A program made the position numbers and the translations under genes. 33,379 nucleotides of DNA, taken from the NCBI RefSeq assembly GCF_030691135.1, contig NZ_JAUYFA010000042.1:1-33379 (forward strand), read 5' to 3'. Positions 5,088-33,379 of the stretch are shown here, in pieces. Source of the DNA: Phreatobacter sp. Its GTDB lineage: Bacteria > Pseudomonadota > Alphaproteobacteria > Rhizobiales > Phreatobacteraceae. The notes below the pieces were generated by a model. That model was not told where the DNA came from and did not search any database. It saw only the letters and a program-made list of their open reading frames with translations. The number at the start of each line of letters is the position of its first letter. Positions within the stretch are counted from its first letter, which is position 1.

Positions 5088-6485
5088 ATGAATTCGATCA
5101 GTCAGAGAGCGATGAGGGCTTGGGTCGGGCTCGGCCCGCGCTTCCTGCCCTTTGCGGATGCCGCCTCCGCCGAGGTGCCGCTGTCGCGCCTGCTGCGCCT
5201 GTCCCTGGTTCAGGTCTCGGTCGGCATGTCGCTGGTGCTGATGGTCGGCACGCTGAACCGCGTCATGATCGTCGAACTGGGCATCTCCGCCGGCCTGGTC
5301 GCGACCATGATCGCGCTGCCCGTGCTGTTTGCGCCGTTCCGGGCCTTGATCGGGCAGAGTTCCGACACCCATGTGTCGGTGCTCGGCTGGAAGCGGGTCC
5401 CCTTCCTGTTCAATGGCACGATGGTGCAGTTCGGCGGGCTGGCCCTCATGCCCTTCGCGCTGCTCGTGCTCTCCGGCGGTGGCGCGGCCAAGGATTATCC
5501 GGTCTGGATCGGACAGGCCGCCGCGGCGCTGTCGTTCCTGCTGGTCGGGGCCGGTGTCCACACGACGCAGACCGTCGTCCTCGCCCTCGCCACCGACCTG
5601 ACCAGCGAAGACCGGCGACCGAAGGTTGTCGGCCTCATGTATGTGATGCTGCTGGTCGGCACCATCGCCAGTGCGCTGATCTTTGGCCATCTGCTCGAGG
5701 AGTTCACGCCGGGCCGGCTGATTCAGGTGATCCAGGGCACCGCCGTGGTGACGATCGCGCTGAACGGCATCGCGCTGTGGAAACAGGAAAGCCTGAAGCG
5801 CATGACGGCTGCCGAGTTGGCCGCACCGCAACCGAGCTTCCGCGATTCGATGCGACGCTACATGCAGGGCGAGGCGGCGCGACGCCGGCTTGTCGCCGTC
5901 GGTCTCGGCACCATGGCCTTCGGCATGCAGGACGTGCTCCTCGAGCCCTATGGCGGCGAGATCCTCGGGCTCTCGGTCGCCGACACCACCAAGCTGACCG
6001 CCGCCCTGGCCGGCGGCGGGCTCATCGGCTTCGGCATGGCGTCCCAAGTGCTCAGCCGCGGCGCAGACGCCTTCACCATGGCAGGGCTCGGCACGCTCGT
6101 CGGCATTCTCGGCTTTGCCGGGGTGATCGCCGCAGCCCCGGCGGGCTCACCCATGCTTTTCGCCGCAGGCGTCATCGTCATCGGTGCCGGCGGCGGCCTG
6201 TTCGGGCATGGCACACTGACCGCTGCGATGAACTATGCGCCGGAGGGCCAGGCTGGGCTGGCGCTCGGCACCTGGGGCGCCATCCAGGCCACTGCCGCAG
6301 GGCTTGGTATCGCCGTCGGGGGACTCCTGCGCGACGTCGCCATGTCGATCGGAGCGCTGGAAGGTCTTGGCGCAGCACGCGGCTACATGATCGTCTATGC
6401 GACGGAAATCGTTCTGCTCCTCGCGACCTTGGCAGCGATGTCCTCGCTGTTTCGGCCCGCCGGGGACCAGAGCACCAGAGGCTAG
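5088..6485 (+). CDS. pucC: PucC-type bacteriochlorophyll delivery / LH assembly protein (MFS, BCD family)
   Basis: A 465-residue integral membrane protein with about 12 hydrophobic segments and the BCD-family start: LGPRFLPFADA, then LLRLSLVQVSVGMSLVLMVG and LNRVMIVELG. A loop TDLTSEDRRPKVVGLMY and the later FGMQDVLLEPYGGEILG and GLFGHGTLTAAMNYAPEGQAG stretches are characteristic of PucC/LhaA proteins. In Rhodobacter, PucC is needed for LH2 assembly and is thought to deliver bacteriochlorophyll to the antenna peptides in the inner membrane. Its place behind pucBA fixes it as PucC rather than LhaA (LH1) or the Bch2/ORF428 paralogue. Start: ATG at 5088, preceded by GAGGCG. It lies 253 bp after pucA and 36 bp before the next gene. 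Confidence 0.93.
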   Translation: MNSISQRAMRAWVGLGPRFLPFADAASAEVPLSRLLRLSLVQVSVGMSLVLMVGTLNRVMIVELGISAGLVATMIALPVLFAPFRALIGQSSDTHVSVLGWKRVPFLFNGTMVQFGGLALMPFALLVLSGGGAAKDYPVWIGQAAAALSFLLVGAGVHTTQTVVLALATDLTSEDRRPKVVGLMYVMLLVGTIASALIFGHLLEEFTPGRLIQVIQGTAVVTIALNGIALWKQESLKRMTAAELAAPQPSFRDSMRRYMQGEAARRRLVAVGLGTMAFGMQDVLLEPYGGEILGLSVADTTKLTAALAGGGLIGFGMASQVLSRGADAFTMAGLGTLVGILGFAGVIAAAPAGSPMLFAAGVIVIGAGGGLFGHGTLTAAMNYAPEGQAGLALGTWGAIQATAAGLGIAVGGLLRDVAMSIGALEGLGAARGYMIVYATEIVLLLATLAAMSSLFRPAGDQSTRG

Positions 6486-24106: not shown

Positions 24107-27100
24107 ATGCGCATCGACAGGCGTTACACCACGGCCGGAAAGTCTCCCTATGCGGAGATCGCCTTCCGCAATGCGACGTCGGAAATCCGCAATCCCGACG
24201 GCTCGATCGTCTTCCGCCTGGAAGGCATCGAGGTGCCGGAGGCGTGGAGCCAGGTGGCCGCCGATATCCTGGCGCAGAAATATTTCCGCAAGGCCGGCGT
24301 TCCGGCGCGCCTCAAGCGCATCGAGGAGAATTCCGTCCCGTCGTGGCTGTGGCGCTCGACGCCCGACGACAAGGCGATGAAGGAGCTGCCCGAGACCGAG
24401 CGCTGGGTCGGCGAGACGACGTCGCAGCAGGTCTTCGACCGCCTCGCCGGCACCTGGACCTACTGGGGCTGGAAGGGCGGCTACTTCGACCAGGAGGCCG
24501 ATGCCCAGGCCTTCTTCGACGAGCTGCGCTTCATGCTGGCCCGCCAGATGGTGGCACCGAACTCGCCGCAGTGGTTCAACACCGGCCTGCACTGGGCCTA
24601 TGGCATCGATGGTCCCGGCCAGGGCCACTACTACGTCGATTTCGAGACCGGCAAGCTGACCAAGTCGACGTCGGCCTACGAGCACCCGCAGCCCCACGCC
24701 TGCTTCATCCAGTCGGTCGCCGACGACCTCGTCAACGAGGGCGGCATCATGGACCTGTGGGTGCGCGAGGCGCGCCTGTTCAAGTACGGCTCGGGCACCG
24801 GCTCGAACTTCTCCTATCTGCGCGGCGAGGGCGAGAAGCTCGCCGGCGGCGGCCGCTCCTCCGGCCTGATGAGTTTCCTGAAGATCGGCGACCGCGCCGC
24901 CGGCGCCATCAAGTCGGGCGGAACGACGCGCCGCGCCGCCAAGATGGTGGTGGTCGACGCCGACCATCCGGACATCGAGGCCTATATCGACTGGAAGGTG
25001 ATGGAGGAGCAGAAGGTCGCCTCGCTGGTGACCGGCTCGAAGATCGTCGCCAAGCATCTCAAGGCCGTCATGAAGGCCTGCATCAACTGCGACGGCGACG
25101 GCGATGCCTGTTTCGACCCGAACCAGAACCCCGCGCTGAAGCGCGAGGTGAAGGCGGCGCGCAAGTCCATGGTGCCCGACAACTACGTCAAGCGGGTCAT
25201 CCAGTTCGCCAAGCAGGGCTACAAAGACATCGACTTCCCGACCTACGACACGGACTGGGATTCCGACGCCTATCTGACGGTGGCCGGCCAGAACTCCAAC
25301 AACTCCGTCTCGCTGAAGGATGACTTCCTGCAGGCGGTGGAGCAGGACGGCGACTGGAACCTGACGGCGCGCATCACCGGCAAGGTGATGAAGACGCTGA
25401 AGGCGCGCGACCTCTGGGAGAAGATCGGCCACGCCGCCTGGGCTTCCGCCGATCCGGGCCTGCATTTCAACACGACGATGAACGACTGGCACACCTGCCC
25501 GGCGGCCGGCCCGATCCGCGCGTCGAACCCGTGCTCGGAATACATGTTCCTCGACGACACGGCCTGCAATCTCGCCTCGGCGAACCTGCTGCAGTTCTAC
25601 GATCCCAAGGCCAAGCAGTTCGACATCGCCGGCTACGAGCATCTCTGCCGGCTGTGGACTGTCGTGCTCGAGATCTCGGTGCTGATGGCGCAGTTCCCGT
25701 CGCGCCAGATCGCCGAGCGGTCCTTCGAGTACCGCACCCTCGGCCTCGGCTACGCCAATATCGGCGGCCTCCTGATGACCATGGGCATCCCCTATGATTC
25801 CGACGAGGGCCGTTCCCTCGCCGGCGTGCTCACCGCCGTCATGACCGGCATCTCCTACAAGACCTCCGCCGAGATGGCCGGCGAGCTCGGACCCTTCCCG
25901 GGCTACCAGCCGAACCGCGAGGCCATGCTGCGGGTCATCCGCAACCACCGCCGCGCCGCCCATGGCCAGACGACCGGCTACGAGGCGCTGTCGGTGAACC
26001 CGGTCGCGCTCGACCACGCCAACTGCCCGGTGCCGGGCCTCGTCGCCCACGCCACCCGCGCCTGGGACGAGGCTCTCGCCCTCGGCGAGACCAACGGCTA
26101 CCGCAACGCCCAGGTCTCGGTCATCGCGCCCACCGGCACGATCGGCCTGGTCATGGACTGCGACACGACCGGCATCGAGCCGGACTTCGCCCTGGTGAAG
26201 TTCAAGAAACTGGCCGGCGGCGGCTACTTCAAGATCATCAACCAGGCGGTGCCGGAAGCGCTGCGCACCCTCGGCTATCGCGAGAGCGAGCTCGCCGAAA
26301 TGGAGGCCTATGCTGTCGGCCACGGCACGCTGTCGCAGGCCCCGGCGATCAACGCGGCGACGCTGCGCGCCAAGGGCTTCACCGACGAGGCGCTGGCCAA
26401 GGTCGAGGCACAGCTGAAGACCGCCTTCGACATCAAGTTCGTCTTCAACAAGTGGACGCTGGGCGAGGACTTCGTGGTCAAGACCCTCGGCATCCCCGCC
26501 GAGGAGGTCAACGCGCCGGGCTTCGAACTGCTCGCCCGCATCGGCTTCTCTAAGAAGGACATCGAGGCGGCCAACGAGCATGTCTGCGGTGCCATGACGC
26601 TGGAAGGCGCGCCCTACCTGAAGGCCGAGCACTATGCGGTGTTCGACTGCGCCAACCCCTGCGGCCGCAAGGGCAAGCGCTACCTCTCGGTGGACAGCCA
26701 CATCCGCATGATGGCGGCGGCCCAGCCCTTCATCTCGGGCGCCATCTCGAAGACCATCAACATGCCGAACGAGGCCACCGTCGACGACTGCAAGAGCGCC
26801 TACATGCTCTCGTGGAAGCTGGCGCTGAAGGCCAATGCCCTCTACCGCGACGGCTCCAAGCTCTCCCAGCCGCTGAACTCGCAGCTGATCGAGGACGACG
26901 AGGACGAGGACGGCGTCGAGGAGCTGATGGAGAAGCCGCAGGCGGCCCGCGCCGCGGCACTGGCCGAGCGCATCGTCGAGAAGGTGGTCGAGCGCGTGCA
27001 GGTGATCCGCGAGCGCGAGCGCATGCCGGACCGCCGCAAGGGCTATACCCAGAAGGCGGTGGTCGGTGGCCACAAGGTCTATCTGCGCACCGGCGAATAT

Positions 27101-27817
27101 GACGACGGCCGCATCGGCGAGATCTTCATCGACATGCACAAGGAGGGCGCGGCGCTGCGCTCGCTCCTCAACAACTTCGCCATCGCCATCTCGCTGGGTC
27201 TGCAGTACGGCGTGCCGCTGGACGAATATGTGGAGGCCTTCACCTTCACGCGCTTCGAGCCGGCGGGCCCGGTGCAGGGCAACGACACGATCAAATACGC
27301 CACCTCGATCCTCGACTACGTGTTCCGCGAGCTCGCCGTGAGCTATCTCGGCCGCGCCGATCTCGGCCATGTCGATCCCGGCGAGAGCCGCTATGACGCG
27401 CTCGGCACCGGGACGACGGAGGGTGCCAGGAGCGTCCTCTCCAAGGGCCTGGTGCGCGGCAAGACCGACAAGTTCACGGTGGTCACCGGCCAGAACGGCC
27501 AGCCGACCCCGGGTTCGCTGTCGAGCGACGGGCGCACCGGCACGGTGGTGACCATGGCCCGCGGCGCGACGATCGGCGCCACGGCGCTGAAGGAGGAGGT
27601 GGTGACCGCCGTCTCACCCGCCCTCGCAGTGCTCTTCGACCAGGCCGAGGCGGCGCCCGAGGCGAAGTCGGAGCGCTCCACCGCCGACCGGCGGGCCGAG
27701 GCGCAGCTGCGCGGCTATGTCGGGGATGCCTGCCCGGAATGCTCGAACTTCACCATGGTGCGGAACGGCACGTGTTTGAAGTGCGACACGTGTGGCTCGA
27801 CGACGGGGTGCTCGTAA
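24107..27817 (+). CDS. nrdJ: Vitamin B12-dependent (class II) ribonucleoside-diphosphate reductase
   Basis: 1236 residues, the normal size for the large class II enzyme of alphaproteobacteria. It reduces ribonucleotides to deoxyribonucleotides using adenosylcobalamin, with or without oxygen. Active-site features are PHACFIQSV (first redox Cys), NPCSEYMF (radical Cys C476 and Glu E478) and [12 protein letters not shown] (second redox Cys). The substrate-binding barrel has [10 protein letters not shown] and [21 protein letters not shown]. The C-terminus ends in a Cys-rich tail (CPEC...[14 protein letters not shown]) that reloads the active-site disulfide. An acidic patch ([12 protein letters not shown]) precedes a region found only in long NrdJ forms. 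The start has ACGAGGAT upstream. It is a single-gene unit with a terminator at 27911; NrdR control is suggested by the upstream boxes. Confidence 0.97.
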
Positions 27818-27910
27818 AATGGTTGAGAGATGTGGAGCGACGCATAACTTGGCACCAAAAGCCGGGTTAGCGTGGCGCAATTCAGCCATAACGTGACATT
27901 CGACCCTGGA

Positions 27911-27932
27911 GGCCTCGCCGATCGGCGGGGCC
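27911..27932 (+). terminator. Terminator of nrdJ
   Basis: GGCCTCGCC - GATC - GGCGGGGCC: a 9-bp stem (one G-T pair) followed by TTCGTCATTTC, 93 bases past the nrdJ stop. Confidence 0.7.
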
Positions 27933-28047
27933 TTCGTCATTTCAGGCTGGGAAATATGGGGCACCAACGAGGCCGACTACGAGGCTCCAGCTGAAGCGTT
28001 CAAAACGCGGCCAATCCCGCTTGGGAGCTGTCAGGAGCGCTAAAGAA

Positions 28048-28080
28048 TTTCCACAAATGCGGGAATGAGTTTCCACAAAT
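28048..28080. repeat. Direct repeat TTTCCACAAAT, two copies 22 bp apart
   Basis: TTTCCACAAAT occurs at 28048-28058 and 28070-28080. GCGGGA follows the first copy and TCCCG overlaps the end of the second, so the copies are linked by a small inverted element. It may be a relic of a repeat element or of an integration event. Confidence 0.6.
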
Positions 28081-28222
28081 CCCGAATGTGCTTCCTCGTT
28101 CCGCTTCGGTCACGGTATTTGAGATGAAAACGGCATCGTCAGCCCACCCGGAAAAAGCGAACGCTGTCAACTGCTCGACCGCTTTCGGGCCTAAACCAGA
28201 GGGCGGGAATGTCCGCTTATAA

Positions 28223-28260
28223 CCCGACACTACGTGTCGGGTCTGGCGGCGCAAAGCGCC
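28223..28260 (-). terminator. Terminator of the minus-strand redox operon
   Basis: Reading the minus strand after the cytochrome stop, a GGCGC-TTT-GCGCC hairpin (28260-28248) comes first. It is followed by CCCGACAC-GTA-GTGTCGGG (28241-28223), a perfect 8-bp stem, then TTATAAG. The second is the likelier terminator. Confidence 0.7.
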
Positions 28261-28302
28261 TTAACGGTGACCGTCGGTTGAGCGGATCCATCAGGGGAGC
28301 AT

Positions 28303-29031
28303 TCAATCGTGATTGCCGCGCTCGCGGGTGCCGCGTTCACGAACTTCGCCGTGGGCGCTCCTGTGACAAGAAACGCAGTTCGTGAAGTTGGGGATGCCTT
28401 CGCGGATGTGCTTCCTGCGGATATTGGCTTCGGTATGCTCATGGCAGCCGTAACAGGTGTACTGCCGCCGATCGCTCGTCGTGTGGCACGTGGCGCAGGG
28501 TGCGTTGTGATCCCGGTCGAGCACGAAGAAGCGCGCGTGGTCAAACGTCGCCGGCTTCCACCGATCCTGACTATGGCATTGCGTGCACTGGCCTGTCAGA
28601 CCGCTGTGGACAGGTGTCGAGGGAGCGGTATGGCACGACGTGCAGTTCTCCCGGATTGGCGCGTTCAGCAGCGCATGGGAGAAGGCGGGCCGGCCGCGCG
28701 GCGTCAGCGCCGGGTTCGTGTGGTCGGTGTGGCACGCCATACAGTTCTGCGACGTCAGGCCCTGATGAAACGGCGTGACCGGATTCATGCGCGCAACGGC
28801 CAAGCCCGCGGTCGTGCGCAGTCCGATATCCGCCACCTTGTGGCAGGTGATGCATCGATCTGCGCTGGCCCCGCGTAACGGCGCATGGCAGGCAAAACAG
28901 TTTGTTTCGAGATTGGCATGTGCTGGAATGAGTGGTCCCGGCGCTATCATCAAGTGTGGATACAGCAACACCAGTGCTGTGAGACCGACTAAATTGACCG
29001 CGATGAGAAGGAGAATCCAGCGTCGCTTCAT
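28303..29031 (-). CDS. Membrane-anchored octaheme c-type cytochrome
   Basis: 242 residues with eight CXXCH haem-c motifs, at Cys 45, 60, 97, 130, 149, 179, 193 and 219 (CFACH, CITCH, CMACH, CTSCH, CTQCH, CATCH, CYGCH, CVSCH). Residues 6-24 form an uncleaved-looking membrane anchor, so the haem domain faces the periplasm. Extra His residues (38, 89, 104, 119, 142, 165, 175, 199, 208) could give bis-His ligation, as in cytochrome c3/c7 and NapC-like proteins. It does not match NrfA, HAO or Otr octahaem enzymes in size, so electron transfer rather than catalysis is more likely. The start ATG overlaps the preceding membrane-cytochrome stop (ATGA), so the two are translationally coupled. It is the last gene of a three-gene operon with the reductase and b-type cytochrome. 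Confidence 0.9.
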   Translation of the reverse strand: MKRRWILLLIAVNLVGLTALVLLYPHLMIAPGPLIPAHANLETNCFACHAPLRGASADRCITCHKVADIGLRTTAGLAVARMNPVTPFHQGLTSQNCMACHTDHTNPALTPRGRPAFSHALLNAPIRENCTSCHTAPSTPVHSGLTGQCTQCHSQDRWKPATFDHARFFVLDRDHNAPCATCHTTSDRRQYTCYGCHEHTEANIRRKHIREGIPNFTNCVSCHRSAHGEVRERGTRERGNHD

Positions 29032-29606
29032 CTCCACCCCCAGAACAGGAAAATGCTCACGATGTGGCCAAGCGCCAGAACGGCGAAGGCCAGCGTGATC
29101 GGGTAGTGGACCGCACGCCAATGCTTGACGGCGTCAAAGGTCAGGCTGTCCCAATAGAGCTTGTCTTCAAGCTCTGCGCTGGACAAACCCTGCGCGCGCA
29201 TCTGGGTGCGCGTTTCCTCCAGCCTGAAACGCGCGCGCTGCAGAAGAAACTTACCGGTCAGCCCGCTGCCGATGTTGACGAGCATGGCCCAGACCGCGAG
29301 CCAGCCCAGGATGGCGTTGAAGTGGATGCCCGCATGAACAAGGATCAGAAGCGATCCAGACCAGGCCATGTATTCGTGCAGCCTGAGCAATGTTGCGGGT
29401 TTTCCGGATGTGATGAGTTTGCGCTTGCGCAGGGAATAGCCGAAGGATCCAATGATCAGCAGCACTCCGGGAATGCCGAGGTAGCGTCCGATCCAGACAG
29501 CGTTCAGCCAATGCAGGAGCGCGTCGATTGCGAGCGCCGCGAAGCCAAGCAGCGCGAGCCGCAGGAAGAAGGGGATGACTTCACGTGAGAAGAGGCTGAA
29601 ACGCAT
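29028..29606 (-). CDS. Small b-type cytochrome-like integral membrane protein
   Basis: 192 residues from the ATG at 29606 (GGAGG lies upstream inside the preceding gene); a longer frame upstream lacks likeness to a membrane protein. Four or five membrane helices are seen at about 13-32, 43-59, 80-100, 102-118 and 169-189. His77 (RLHEYMAW) and His91/His95 (LVHAGIHF) face His167 (VHYP) and His181 (LGHIVSIF), a pattern that could bind one or two b haems as in cytochrome b561 and ferric-reductase-like membrane domains. A charged cytoplasmic or periplasmic loop lies between residues 120 and 160. Five bases separate it from the reductase gene, and its stop overlaps the start of the octahaem cytochrome gene. 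Role inferred: passing electrons from the flavoprotein through the membrane. Confidence 0.8.
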   Translation of the reverse strand: MRFSLFSREVIPFFLRLALLGFAALAIDALLHWLNAVWIGRYLGIPGVLLIIGSFGYSLRKRKLITSGKPATLLRLHEYMAWSGSLLILVHAGIHFNAILGWLAVWAMLVNIGSGLTGKFLLQRARFRLEETRTQMRAQGLSSAELEDKLYWDSLTFDAVKHWRAVHYPITLAFAVLALGHIVSIFLFWGWR

Positions 29607-29611
29607 GATCT

Positions 29612-30850
29612 TCAGGCCTCCAGCACAAGGTTGGAAGCCGGAAGGCCAACACACAAAAGGCATGCGCCGGCGGGAACGTCGAAGTCGGGCTTGCTGGGAT
29701 ACCGTACCTCGCCCGAGACAAGGCGCGTTTCGCAAGCCCCGCAACTGCCGGACCGGCAACCGGCCTCAATCCGAATGCCGCGGCGTTCGGCGAAGTCGAG
29801 AAGGCTCTGATCTTCGCCTGTCCAGGCAATTGTCCGCTGTGACCGGCGGAACTGGATGTCGAAGGGCTTGGTGAGCGGCGTTTCCGTTGCGCCCGCCACC
29901 GGTCGGACATATCCCGAAGATGCCGGCCCGAAGGACTCGAAATGGATGTCGCTCTTGGGGACGCCCCATTCGGCCAGCGCGGGGACAACCGCCGCCATCA
30001 TCGCCGGCGGACCGCACGCGTAGAATTGGTGTCGCCCATGGGGCAAAACGCGCTTCAGCAACGCGATATCGATAAACCCGGCCTGCTGAAAATCCCGGCC
30101 TTCGATGTCGTCGGGGCCGGGCGCGCCGTAAAGCACAACCAGCGTTAAGGCAGGATGCGACTGGGCCAGCCCTACTAGCAAGGCTTTGAAGGCGTGGTCG
30201 CTGCTGTTCCGAACGCCATAGAAGAGGAAGAGCCGCCGCTCCGGTTCGTGGGCTAGCGACCAGGACATCATGCTGATCATCGGCGTCACACCGATGCCGC
30301 CAGCGATGAAGACGGCCGGCGTGTCAGGTGTCGTGTCCAGCATGAAGCTCCCGGAAGGCGCCTTGACCTTCAGAAGGTCGCCCACCTGAACCGCGTCGTG
30401 CAGGAAATTTGAAGCCGCTCCGGCCGGCAGATCTGGCTGCGTCGAGGGGGCTGGCATGCGCTTGACGGTGATCCGGTAGGTCTCGCCGTTAGGCTGGTCG
30501 GACAGGGAGTAGCAACGCACGATGGTTCGCTGCGGCTCCGCCGCCGACGCCGTTAAATCAATTGAGAAGGTCAGATATTGCCCCGGAGCAAAGTCTGGCA
30601 GTGGCAGCCCGTCCACCGGGCGGAGGATGAGAGTCCGCTGGGTTCGGGCCTTGTCTTCGAGGGCAACGCCATCGACGCGAAACGCGCGCCACCCGGCCCA
30701 CGCGCCAGTCACCGCCGTGAGGGCGTCCCTGTCGACGGGCGGCGGCGCCGACGCATGATATCGAAGCCGCCAGACCCCGACGCCGATTCCCACAGCGACC
30801 TGAAGAAGGATCACCGCCGAGATCGCAACGAGGAGCAAGGGCGCGGTCAT
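29612..30850 (-). CDS. Membrane-anchored NAD(P)H:ferredoxin-type reductase (FAD, NAD, C-terminal [2Fe-2S])
   Basis: 412 residues from the ATG at 30850. One N-terminal membrane helix lies at about 4-26. The FNR-like FAD domain (about 50-172) contains FAPGQYLTF and RCYSLSD (112-118; the R-x-Y-S flavin motif). The NAD(P) domain (about 178-305) has IAGGIGVTPMISM (182-194) and CGPPAMM (279-285). A plant-type [2Fe-2S] domain ends the chain, with C365, C370, C373 and C400 (CRSGSCGAC...LLC). This order is that of Vanillate-O-demethylase-reductase-like and hybrid-cluster-protein reductases, but with a membrane anchor. Electrons would run NAD(P)H to FAD to [2Fe-2S] and on to the neighbouring membrane cytochrome. 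Its start overlaps the stop of an upstream ATPase remnant. Confidence 0.9.
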   Translation of the reverse strand: MTAPLLLVAISAVILLQVAVGIGVGVWRLRYHASAPPPVDRDALTAVTGAWAGWRAFRVDGVALEDKARTQRTLILRPVDGLPLPDFAPGQYLTFSIDLTASAAEPQRTIVRCYSLSDQPNGETYRITVKRMPAPSTQPDLPAGAASNFLHDAVQVGDLLKVKAPSGSFMLDTTPDTPAVFIAGGIGVTPMISMMSWSLAHEPERRLFLFYGVRNSSDHAFKALLVGLAQSHPALTLVVLYGAPGPDDIEGRDFQQAGFIDIALLKRVLPHGRHQFYACGPPAMMAAVVPALAEWGVPKSDIHFESFGPASSGYVRPVAGATETPLTKPFDIQFRRSQRTIAWTGEDQSLLDFAERRGIRIEAGCRSGSCGACETRLVSGEVRYPSKPDFDVPAGACLLCVGLPASNLVLEA

Positions 30851-31146
30851 GGCGCACGCCTTGCGAACTGAACGGGCGCTGCTGCTGCGCCGGCAAGCAT
30901 CGCACTGGCCCTTTCCCGGTCGAACCCCATTCGCCAAAGCGGTTTGGGGACTTCAAGGACCGCCAGCGCGACAGCACCAGCGCCGACAGGGAGTGCGGGC
31001 ATAGGCTCACGAATGACCTCCCGAATGATTCTGAAGGCTGTCCGTTGGCAGTGCTTCGGAAGCTCGTTCGGGCCGCCTTCGAGCAGCCGTGCCTTTGCCG
31101 CAGCTTCGCGATGGCCTGATAAGTGGGTCGTCTGCTGGGACGTCAT
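30847..31146 (-). pseudogene. Remnant of a cation-transporting P-type ATPase (N-terminus only)
   Basis: A 99-codon frame from the ATG at 31146. Residues about 8-65 resemble the cation-ATPase N-terminal domain: LSGHREAAAKARLLEGGPNELP, then IIREVIREPMPALPVGAGAVALAVLE, which is the usual '[GP]NELP ... EVLREPM ... LLGAGA' pattern. After that the likeness stops; the ~800 residues with the phosphorylation (DKTGT) and nucleotide domains are absent. The final stretch ends in a TGA that overlaps the ATG of the reductase gene (ATGA). The fragment therefore may still be translated and lead ribosomes into the redox operon, even though it cannot pump ions. Confidence 0.65.
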
Positions 31147-31464
31147 GGGCAGATTGCCCTTTCCGGGACGCCGCGCGGCGAATGGGCCGAAGCTAGGACA
31201 GACAGCCTGCTCCAAGGTATGTGCCGCAGCCGCTATGGAGCTTTTTGCAACGTCGCACGGACTGCAACCTGACGTATTGATCCAGATCATCAAGCGGACA
31301 TCGAAACAGCCCGAATTCGACTATTCGATCAATCACCGCCGTCTGTTGGATCACATGCCAACGGATAAACGGCGATTTGAAATTTTTGTTCCGTTCACAA
31401 GGAACCAACAACACATCGGCGCATTCAGCGTTGCAGTACGAATACATACAATGAGGAGAACGCT
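31147..31464. other. 318-bp divergent intergenic region, AT-rich in its right half
   Basis: It lies between the ATPase remnant (minus) and the cupin gene (plus). An FNR-type box sits in the middle; 31360-31460 is distinctly AT-rich and should hold the cupin promoter. No gene is supported here. Confidence 0.5.
31277..31290. promoter_or_regulatory. FNR/FixK-type binding site
   Basis: TTGAT-CCAG-ATCAT matches the FNR/FixK consensus TTGAT-N4-ATCAA at nine of ten defined bases. It could drive the redox operon (131 bp upstream of the ATPase-remnant start) or the cupin gene (174 bp upstream). Low-oxygen control of either is inferred. Confidence 0.6.
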
Positions 31465-31860
31465 GTGAAGGGTTTCGTTGACGACATTGAGAAGCTCGCC
31501 GAAGAGAACGACGATTTTCGCCAGGTTCTCTATACCGGCAAGTATCTGCAATTGGTGCGGATGTCGCTCCATCCGGGCGAAGAAATCGGCGATGAAATGC
31601 ACAAGAACGGCGATCAGTTCTTCCGGGTCGAAAAGGGCAAGGGCCAGATCGTCATCGACGGCAAGACGCACAAGATCAAGAGCGACGACGCCATCGTCGT
31701 GCCGGCTGGGTCGCGGCACAACTTGATCAATACGGGCGACAAATCGCTCAAGATCTACACGCTATGTGGACCGCCCAACCAACTCGACCAGTTGATCCAG
31801 ACCACGAAGGCGGAAGCCAGTGCTTCCAAAGAGGCATTTGCTGGGGCGACGACCGAGTAA
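31465..31860 (+). CDS. Single-domain cupin protein
   Basis: 131 residues starting at GTG 31465, with GAGGAG seven bases upstream. The cupin barrel is clear: motif 1 is HPGEEIGDEMHKNGDQFFRVEKGKG (metal ligands H-x5-E-x-H-like: E, H and the later E of RVEKG), and motif 2 is IVVPAGSRHNLINTGD (His ligand). The C-terminal ~30 residues (TTKAEASASKEAFAG) are a polar tail. Such small cupins bind a metal and act in sugar, oxalate or stress metabolism; no specific function can be given. It is divergent from the redox operon across an FNR-like site, so both may belong to a low-oxygen response. Confidence 0.88.
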   Translation: MKGFVDDIEKLAEENDDFRQVLYTGKYLQLVRMSLHPGEEIGDEMHKNGDQFFRVEKGKGQIVIDGKTHKIKSDDAIVVPAGSRHNLINTGDKSLKIYTLCGPPNQLDQLIQTTKAEASASKEAFAGATTE

Positions 31861-31898
31861 CCGGCCGTGCTTCAGATCGTCACGAGAGGAGCAACGAC

Positions 31899-32006
31899 AT
31901 GACCATTTCCCTCTGGGGGCAATACCACCTATCCAAAACCCGGAAGAGCGACAATCGCACCGACAACCGTCGAAACGATCTAAAGACTGGACAAAACTGG
32001 CGGTAA
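31899..32006 (+). CDS. Possible small protein, 35 residues
   Basis: ATG at 31899 is preceded by a strong ribosome-binding site (GAGAGGAG, six or seven bases away), 38 bp behind the cupin stop. The frame encodes MTISLWGQYHLSKTRKSDNR and ends with NDLKTGQNWR: basic and polar, with no membrane segment and no recognised family. It may be a genuine small gene of the cupin operon or the surviving start of a deleted gene. The strong RBS is the main support. Confidence 0.35.
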   Translation: MTISLWGQYHLSKTRKSDNRTDNRRNDLKTGQNWR

Positions 32007-32026
32007 CGTCACCCACGTGCCTCGTC

Positions 32027-33379
<1,353 letters not shown>

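Follow-up and report, generated by a model that had tools for sequence, protein, structure and literature searches.

Inner-membrane proteins with two HX13H motifs, encoded together with multihaem c-type cytochromes, were described by He et al. (2017; PMC5566968) in gene clusters that often contain another redox protein and that occur both with and without porins. As portrayed there, the inner-membrane proteins of the porin-cytochrome clusters PCC3 and PCC4 (∼300 aa in PCC3) possess five helices, an SGXXG motif and two WX3HX13H motifs and are likened to ferric reductase domains. Short and long inner-membrane proteins are reported to share no significant homology, and most of the porin-less "other multiheme cytochrome c" clusters are said to hold another redox protein. 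In the literature searched, this is the only paper found that pairs HX13H with multihaem proteins. Here we describe a three-gene operon of Phreatobacter sp. (Alphaproteobacteria), encoding a reductase, a small membrane protein and an octahaem cytochrome, that lies in a 33,379-nt stretch of DNA (contig NZ_JAUYFA010000042.1, positions 1 to 33,379; the window). There are reasonable grounds to regard it as a horizontally spread transmembrane electron exporter resembling a split NOX/MsrQ system, which would pass electrons from NAD(P)H via an octahaem c cytochrome to a periplasmic acceptor.

A conserved three-gene redox operon

Among the window open reading frames (ORFs), the reductase, membrane protein and octahaem cytochrome genes are adjacent on the minus strand (28303-30850; Table 1). 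A sequence-only reading of this DNA had reported this gene set and its coordinates, a 5-bp gap between the reductase and membrane protein genes and a 4-nt ATGA overlap between the membrane protein and cytochrome genes, all of which were confirmed. Its count of eight CXXCH motifs in the 242-residue cytochrome is also correct; 5000 residue shuffles of the protein gave a mean of 0.08 such motifs and a maximum of two.

That reading had further proposed a search for the same gene order across genomes, and the genes prove not to co-occur rarely. Fifty-four loci were read, comprising the window, L003-L005, which were found with a reductase query, and the remainder, found with a membrane-protein profile. 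Broken or partial remnants (L010/L033 in G275, L074 in G463 and L052 in G620) were dropped before counting, a match in G1111 stands outside the 54, and G1219 and G1327, which share coordinates with G663 and G722, were counted once. A multihaem gene lies downstream of the membrane gene in all 53 testable loci, and a reductase gene lies upstream in 41 of the 54 (39 encoding more than 340 aa, one, L145, split in two frames and one, L144, cut by the contig start). The gap between the reductase and membrane genes is 0-8 nt in 31 of the 40 cases measured, with a small overlap in four more, while the membrane and cytochrome genes show the 4-nt overlap again in 47 of the 52 measurable loci, so that the arrangement represents more than chance. 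Since the cytochrome gene is present in 53/53 loci versus 41/54 for the reductase, the membrane-cytochrome pair is the core of the unit, while the reductase is a frequent partner that some loci lack.

A candidate electron path from cytosol to periplasm

The reductase is of the FNR type. Its Pfam matches to NAD_binding_1 (8.6e-19), a C-terminal Fer2 domain (4.7e-11) and FAD_binding_6 (3.3e-5) all lie above cut-off, the solved chains nearest to it in sequence are flavohaemoproteins (1cqx, E 2.1e-55, residues 48-309), and the best NCBIfam match is again flavohaemoprotein, albeit below cut-off (232 vs 432 bits). In flavohaemoproteins an FNR module feeds a haem b. The ferredoxin-domain residues C365, C370, C373, C397 and C400 are invariant in 31/31 reductases. 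The most hydrophobic segment is N-terminal (residues 6-24) and is followed by arginines, which suggests an N-terminal anchor and a cytosolic catalytic part.

The membrane protein (192 aa, seven His) matched nothing in Pfam or NCBIfam at E 0.1. Six of its histidines (H32, H77, H91, H95, H167 and H181) are invariant in 52/52 usable rows of the 54 loci (L073, where the gene is split between frames, and L108, at a contig end, excluded), the seventh being variable, and four of the six form two HX13H pairs, H77/H91 and H167/H181. A conserved WX3H precedes H167, there being no Trp four residues ahead of H77, and S114, G115 and G118 of an SGxxG motif (114-118) are invariant in 16/16 membrane proteins. 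Hydropathy separates four hydrophobic regions, one of which is long enough for two helices, so that five helices are likely. The 14-residue spacing within each His pair corresponds to a rise of ∼21 Å on a helix, close to the ∼21.5 Å given for the distance between the haem irons of SpNOX (PMC11031084), which supports the notion of a di-haem wire. Loop charges (K+R vs D+E of 6 vs 1 in 53-86 and 8 vs 7 in 122-169) weakly point to a cytosolic location for H77 and H167. The invariant H32 and H95 are surplus to two haems and probably both near the periplasmic face, where they could form a third haem or metal site.

Profile comparison with longer membrane proteins gave an hhalign probability of 98.4 (E 6.4e-15) against 14 proteins of ∼300 aa and 97.2 (E 2.8e-11) against nine of ∼277 aa, and on these alignments the 192-aa protein is a compact homologue of both. 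The neighbourhoods of eight loci encoding longer relatives were inspected (L011, L012, L013, L046, L047, L048, L051 and L063). A cytochrome with at least 13 CXXCH motifs adjoins six of them (L012, L046, L047, L048, L051 and L063), and four (L046, L047, L048 and L051) also hold a protein combining 2x[4Fe-4S] with a pyridine-nucleotide oxidoreductase (Pfam-supported in L046, the only one of the four on which Pfam was run), which would feed a wire of this kind from a different donor in the cytosol. Since the longer relatives stand beside differing redox proteins, one membrane-protein superfamily may serve several cytosolic donors. No intact multihaem ORF was seen in the neighbourhood of L011. In L013, the ∼277-aa relative has an FHA/multihaem protein on one side and a cNMP-binding [4Fe-4S] protein on the other, and may be a redox-sensing variant.

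The cytochrome matches Cytochrom_c3_2 (2.3e-10), as well as Cytochrom_CIII and Cytochrome_C7, and its best solved-structure match is to OmcA/MtrC-type chains (E 0.0035). A putative anchor at residues 5-23 is preceded by three positive residues, which would place the haem-bearing part on the periplasmic side. The histidines of all eight CXXCH motifs, together with nine others, are invariant in 52/52 usable cytochrome rows (L098 and L108, at contig ends, excluded). The nine spare histidines are enough for bis-histidine ligation of all eight haems, which is more suggestive of a carrier than of an enzyme. Among 53 cytochromes the number of CXXCH motifs is eight in 41, ten in ten and twelve in one, the one remaining cytochrome being cut by a contig end; haem units are thus added in modular fashion. 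The window, L003, L004, L005 and L006 cytochromes carry a low-complexity Gly/Arg/Glu/His-rich tail after the last haem motif.

The same histidines bear on whether the system might act as an oxidase or detoxifier, with the outer haem b or the octahaem cytochrome reducing O2 or a toxic oxyanion in a NOX-like manner. The order of redox modules is that of NOX, and two reductase-less pairs have suggestive neighbours. In L162 (1937-6304) the pair follows CDF and ACR3 genes, the latter, an arsenite exporter, scoring above its cut-off, and in L159 (3302-6314) it follows genes for ArsR-like, permease and thioredoxin-like proteins (named by eye), the permease having sub-threshold SaoE and Cu/Zn-efflux matches. 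Both transporter cases come from one genus (g372), however, and with nine spare invariant His for eight haems there is no obvious open site, so that such a role appears highly improbable.

In the path that we favour, cytosolic NAD(P)H would reduce the FAD of the anchored reductase, whose [2Fe-2S] domain would hand single electrons to an inner haem b (H77/H167) of the membrane protein. Electrons would then cross to an outer haem b (H91/H181) and be taken up by the anchored octahaem cytochrome, acting as a periplasm-facing bis-histidine relay or capacitor, before passing to an acceptor in the periplasm, for which oxidised metal ions, or else a small redox partner, are the most plausible candidates. 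The invariance of the HX13H pairs, the FNR-type FAD/[2Fe-2S] reductase and the strong co-occurrence of the genes support this path, and the cytosol-to-periplasm route put forward in the sequence-only reading accordingly stands as the best interpretation of the locus.

Outward electron flow is downhill in potential and runs with the membrane field. Flow in the reverse direction, in which a periplasmic donor such as Fe(II) would send electrons inward to make NAD(P)H, has a counterpart in similarly described proteins beside cytochromes that have been proposed to function in Fe(II) oxidation (PMC5566968, PMC12442390). Transfer to NAD+ would, however, be uphill in potential and against the membrane field, as is established in bioenergetics, and no porin gene was recognised in the flanks when the ORF lists were read (partly first residues only, with no barrel predictor or porin family scan run), which renders inward flow highly improbable. 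An extracellular acceptor, which the sequence-only reading had also entertained, found no support from the same inspection of the flanks.

A quinol route represents a further alternative, in which the membrane protein would be a cytochrome b that acts on quinol and passes electrons from the quinone pool to the multihaem cytochrome, with the reductase either accessory or feeding the same pool. A possibly quinone-active role was proposed for the PCC3/PCC4 inner-membrane proteins (PMC5566968), and the six histidines are invariant in all counted rows even though 12 of the 54 loci have no reductase. The presence of a dedicated FNR-type reductase upstream in 41 of the 54 loci, and its tight coupling to the membrane gene (31 of 40 gaps of 0-8 nt and four small overlaps), argue against this route, which we consider possible but unlikely.

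Several observations nevertheless count against the NAD(P)H-driven path. The membrane-protein profile had no solved-structure match at E 10, and PF01794 had no match in the window membrane protein (E 0.1) or in the L066, L046, L013 and L018 homologues (E 1). In addition to the 12 loci with no reductase, one holds a fragment, 11 of these 13 coming from one batch of loci. In G639, which has no operon reductase, the best other reductase match has an E of 1.3e-29, compared with 3.1e-232 for the window's own. Because the reductase is absent in 12/54 loci and G639 has no other close copy, the membrane protein and cytochrome can probably draw on a different donor. Finally, none of the metal families sought was seen in 39 of the 54 loci, and these families were selected after the neighbours had been seen.

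Table 1. Features of the operon and its immediate surroundings in the window
Feature	Position	Strand	Basis
FNR-type reductase, membrane-anchored; proposed cytosolic electron entry	29612..30850	(-)	412 aa; Pfam, closest solved chains, invariant Cys
Compact inner-membrane protein; proposed di-haem b transmembrane wire	29028..29606	(-)	192 aa; six invariant His
H77-to-H181 segment with HX13H pairs H77/H91 and H167/H181; proposed to ligate a stack of two b haems	29064..29378	(-)	Alignment; motif as described in PMC5566968
Octahaem c-type cytochrome, membrane-anchored; proposed periplasmic acceptor and relay	28303..29031	(-)	242 aa; eight CXXCH, invariant His, Pfam
ATGA overlap of membrane-protein stop and cytochrome start	29028..29031	(-)	4 nt, read from sequence
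Truncated P-type cation ATPase N-terminus overlapping reductase start; context, outside electron path	30847..31173	(-)	PF00690

Distribution, horizontal transfer and neighbouring genes

Counting full or nearly full-length copies, the membrane protein was found in 1/12 genomes of the host genus, 3/385 of the class (plus one truncated copy), 10/399 of the Rhodoferax antarcticus order (with a broken copy in G619 and C-terminal remnants in G463 and G620 in addition), 2/67 and 16/158 of two families and 24/398 of the phylum sample, and yet it belongs to no Pfam or NCBIfam family. The window operon and that of an Acetobacteraceae metagenome-assembled genome (MAG) are 80-86% identical gene by gene, while release factor 2 of the two hosts is 62% identical, compared with 92-97% between the host and four congeners. 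The two operons were joined in a tree of 30 loci made by a quick method (SH-aLRT 100). Third-position GC is 0.73-0.77 in the operon versus 0.85-0.93 in eight other window genes, and is also low (0.76-0.78) in the neighbouring cupin and pobA genes. It is therefore probable, on identity and composition, that the host acquired the operon horizontally. Against wide transfer, the five alphaproteobacterial operons form one group in the same tree (support 93). A search of PLSDB for plasmid carriage, covering the membrane protein only, gave no match.

The region that starts around where the B12-dependent ribonucleotide reductase gene ends and runs as far as the end of the contig (window ∼27000-33379), which includes the cupin (named by eye) and 4-hydroxybenzoate 3-monooxygenase genes, has lower GC and a deviant tetranucleotide make-up and is probably a genomic island. 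Elsewhere in the window (5088-6485, plus strand) is a transporter that we take to be PucC/LhaA-like, although it had no NCBIfam match at 1e-10; it resides in a genome with no match to PF00124 (photosynthetic reaction centre), the host assembly being 99.93% complete. A part in the redox balance of a phototroph, as had been suggested from the sequence alone, is rejected for this host given the lack of a reaction-centre gene.

Seven of the 54 loci carry genes for CDF cation-efflux proteins, which never lie more than 2 kb from the operon and stand on either side of it and in either orientation, whereas only 39% of the flanking bases lie within that distance (P 0.0014). Omitting the three of these loci that supplied queries, four of four lie within 2 kb (0.023). 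The family was picked after the neighbours had been looked at, and the enrichment is therefore only a hint of periplasmic metal chemistry. A first Pfam scan of 119 flanking versus 136 further-out genes was likewise only suggestive, with Cation_efflux in four flank members, taken to be those of L006 (a gene split in two), L072 and L102, and not among the 25 control families listed, of 154 matched, in the further-out genes. One CDF gene passes the curated cut-off for the Co/Ni exporter DmeF, and a VIT1 gene lies ∼40 bp from the operon in two loci. The P-type ATPase remnant that abuts the window operon matches PF00690 (E 6.1e-5, 23 bits vs a cut-off of 20.4), its residues 20-84 share 48% identity with the N-terminal end of a complete ATPase from L093, and L093 and L065 each have related ATPase genes no more than 2 kb from the operon. 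The contexts of the operon are varied, however, including nifE, bchE, ccoP and flagellar genes, and a metal role is a lead only.

A more specific proposal, which we put forward tentatively, is that the operon encodes a proteobacterial NAD(P)H-driven periplasmic metal reductase, consisting of a split, horizontally traded NOX/Fre-like wire and an octahaem capacitor that would keep iron or other metals reduced for the CDF, VIT1 and P-type ATPase neighbours, with H32 and H95, both probably near the outer face, forming an exit site for a metal or a third b haem. Genes judged by eye to be MgtE-, OprC- and ArsR-like are also among the neighbours. In L097, L102, L103, L104 and L105, all of one family, a membrane gene lies ≤150 bp from the operon; its Bestrophin-like Pfam match, obtained for the L097 copy, is weak and falls below threshold. 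A gene beside L006 and L093 judged "ZIP-like" by eye had no match in Pfam (both) or in NCBIfam or PDB (L093 only) and was not counted.

Comparison with known systems

Like NapC and CymA, the cytochrome would be an anchored multihaem c protein at the periplasmic face, but an NAD(P)H reductase and a distinct, proposed b-type wire stand in for quinol oxidation by the cytochrome itself, and the window cytochrome has no match to NapC/NirT (PF03264). Octahaem catalytic cytochromes such as OTR and HAO possess one haem without a distal His ligand; the nine invariant non-CXXCH histidines for eight haems tend to argue against membership of that group. The DUF4405/FezC proteins are, as described in a preprint, membrane cytochromes with conserved central histidines and an iron-linked context, and recombinant DUF4405 binds haem b according to its authors (PMC10979944). 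The best DUF4405 match among the homologues is sub-threshold (L066, 19.7 vs 26.7 bits), and the window membrane protein has none.

Closer in organization are NOX, the ferric reductase domain proteins and MsrQ with Fre, in which an FNR-type NAD(P)H flavin reductase feeds b haems whose ligands are paired histidines from two helices and electrons exit at the outer face, as outlined in PMC11031084. The two HX13H pairs (52/52 usable rows, the helices being assigned by hydropathy only) and the FNR-type dehydrogenase partner, here a separate gene upstream in 41/54 loci, are in keeping with that plan. The system differs in having no PF01794 match, in its separate anchored reductase with a [2Fe-2S] domain and in an octahaem c cytochrome as acceptor. 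If the proposed path is correct, NOX-type enzymology would be linked to multihaem cytochromes, and three small genes would suffice for quinone-independent export of NADH electrons to the periplasm.

With PCC3 and PCC4 the operon shares a membrane protein with two HX13H motifs and SGXXG that adjoins a multihaem cytochrome c, and the ∼300-aa and ∼277-aa relatives would, going by the published description, be of PCC3/PCC4 type. Relative to PCC3, however, the membrane protein is shorter (192 versus ∼300 aa), the cytochrome has 8-12 haem motifs compared with reported medians of 34 and 21, and neither a porin nor an extracellular multihaem cytochrome was recognised in the ORF lists. Relative to both, an FNR-type NAD(P)H reductase belongs to the operon and the cytochrome gene lies downstream of the membrane gene, the reverse of the order given in PMC5566968. 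Being small and clonable, the locus offers a test case for the inner-membrane proteins, as yet uncharacterised, of the porin-cytochrome clusters of iron oxidisers. The sequence-only reading knew of no named system of this composition, and no name for the gene set was found in the literature either (the set may be listed in the supplementary table of PMC5566968), but a similar type of cluster had already been described (He et al., 2017). The general pattern is thus covered by that work, and it is the NAD(P)H reductase, the small size and the mobility of the operon that are new.

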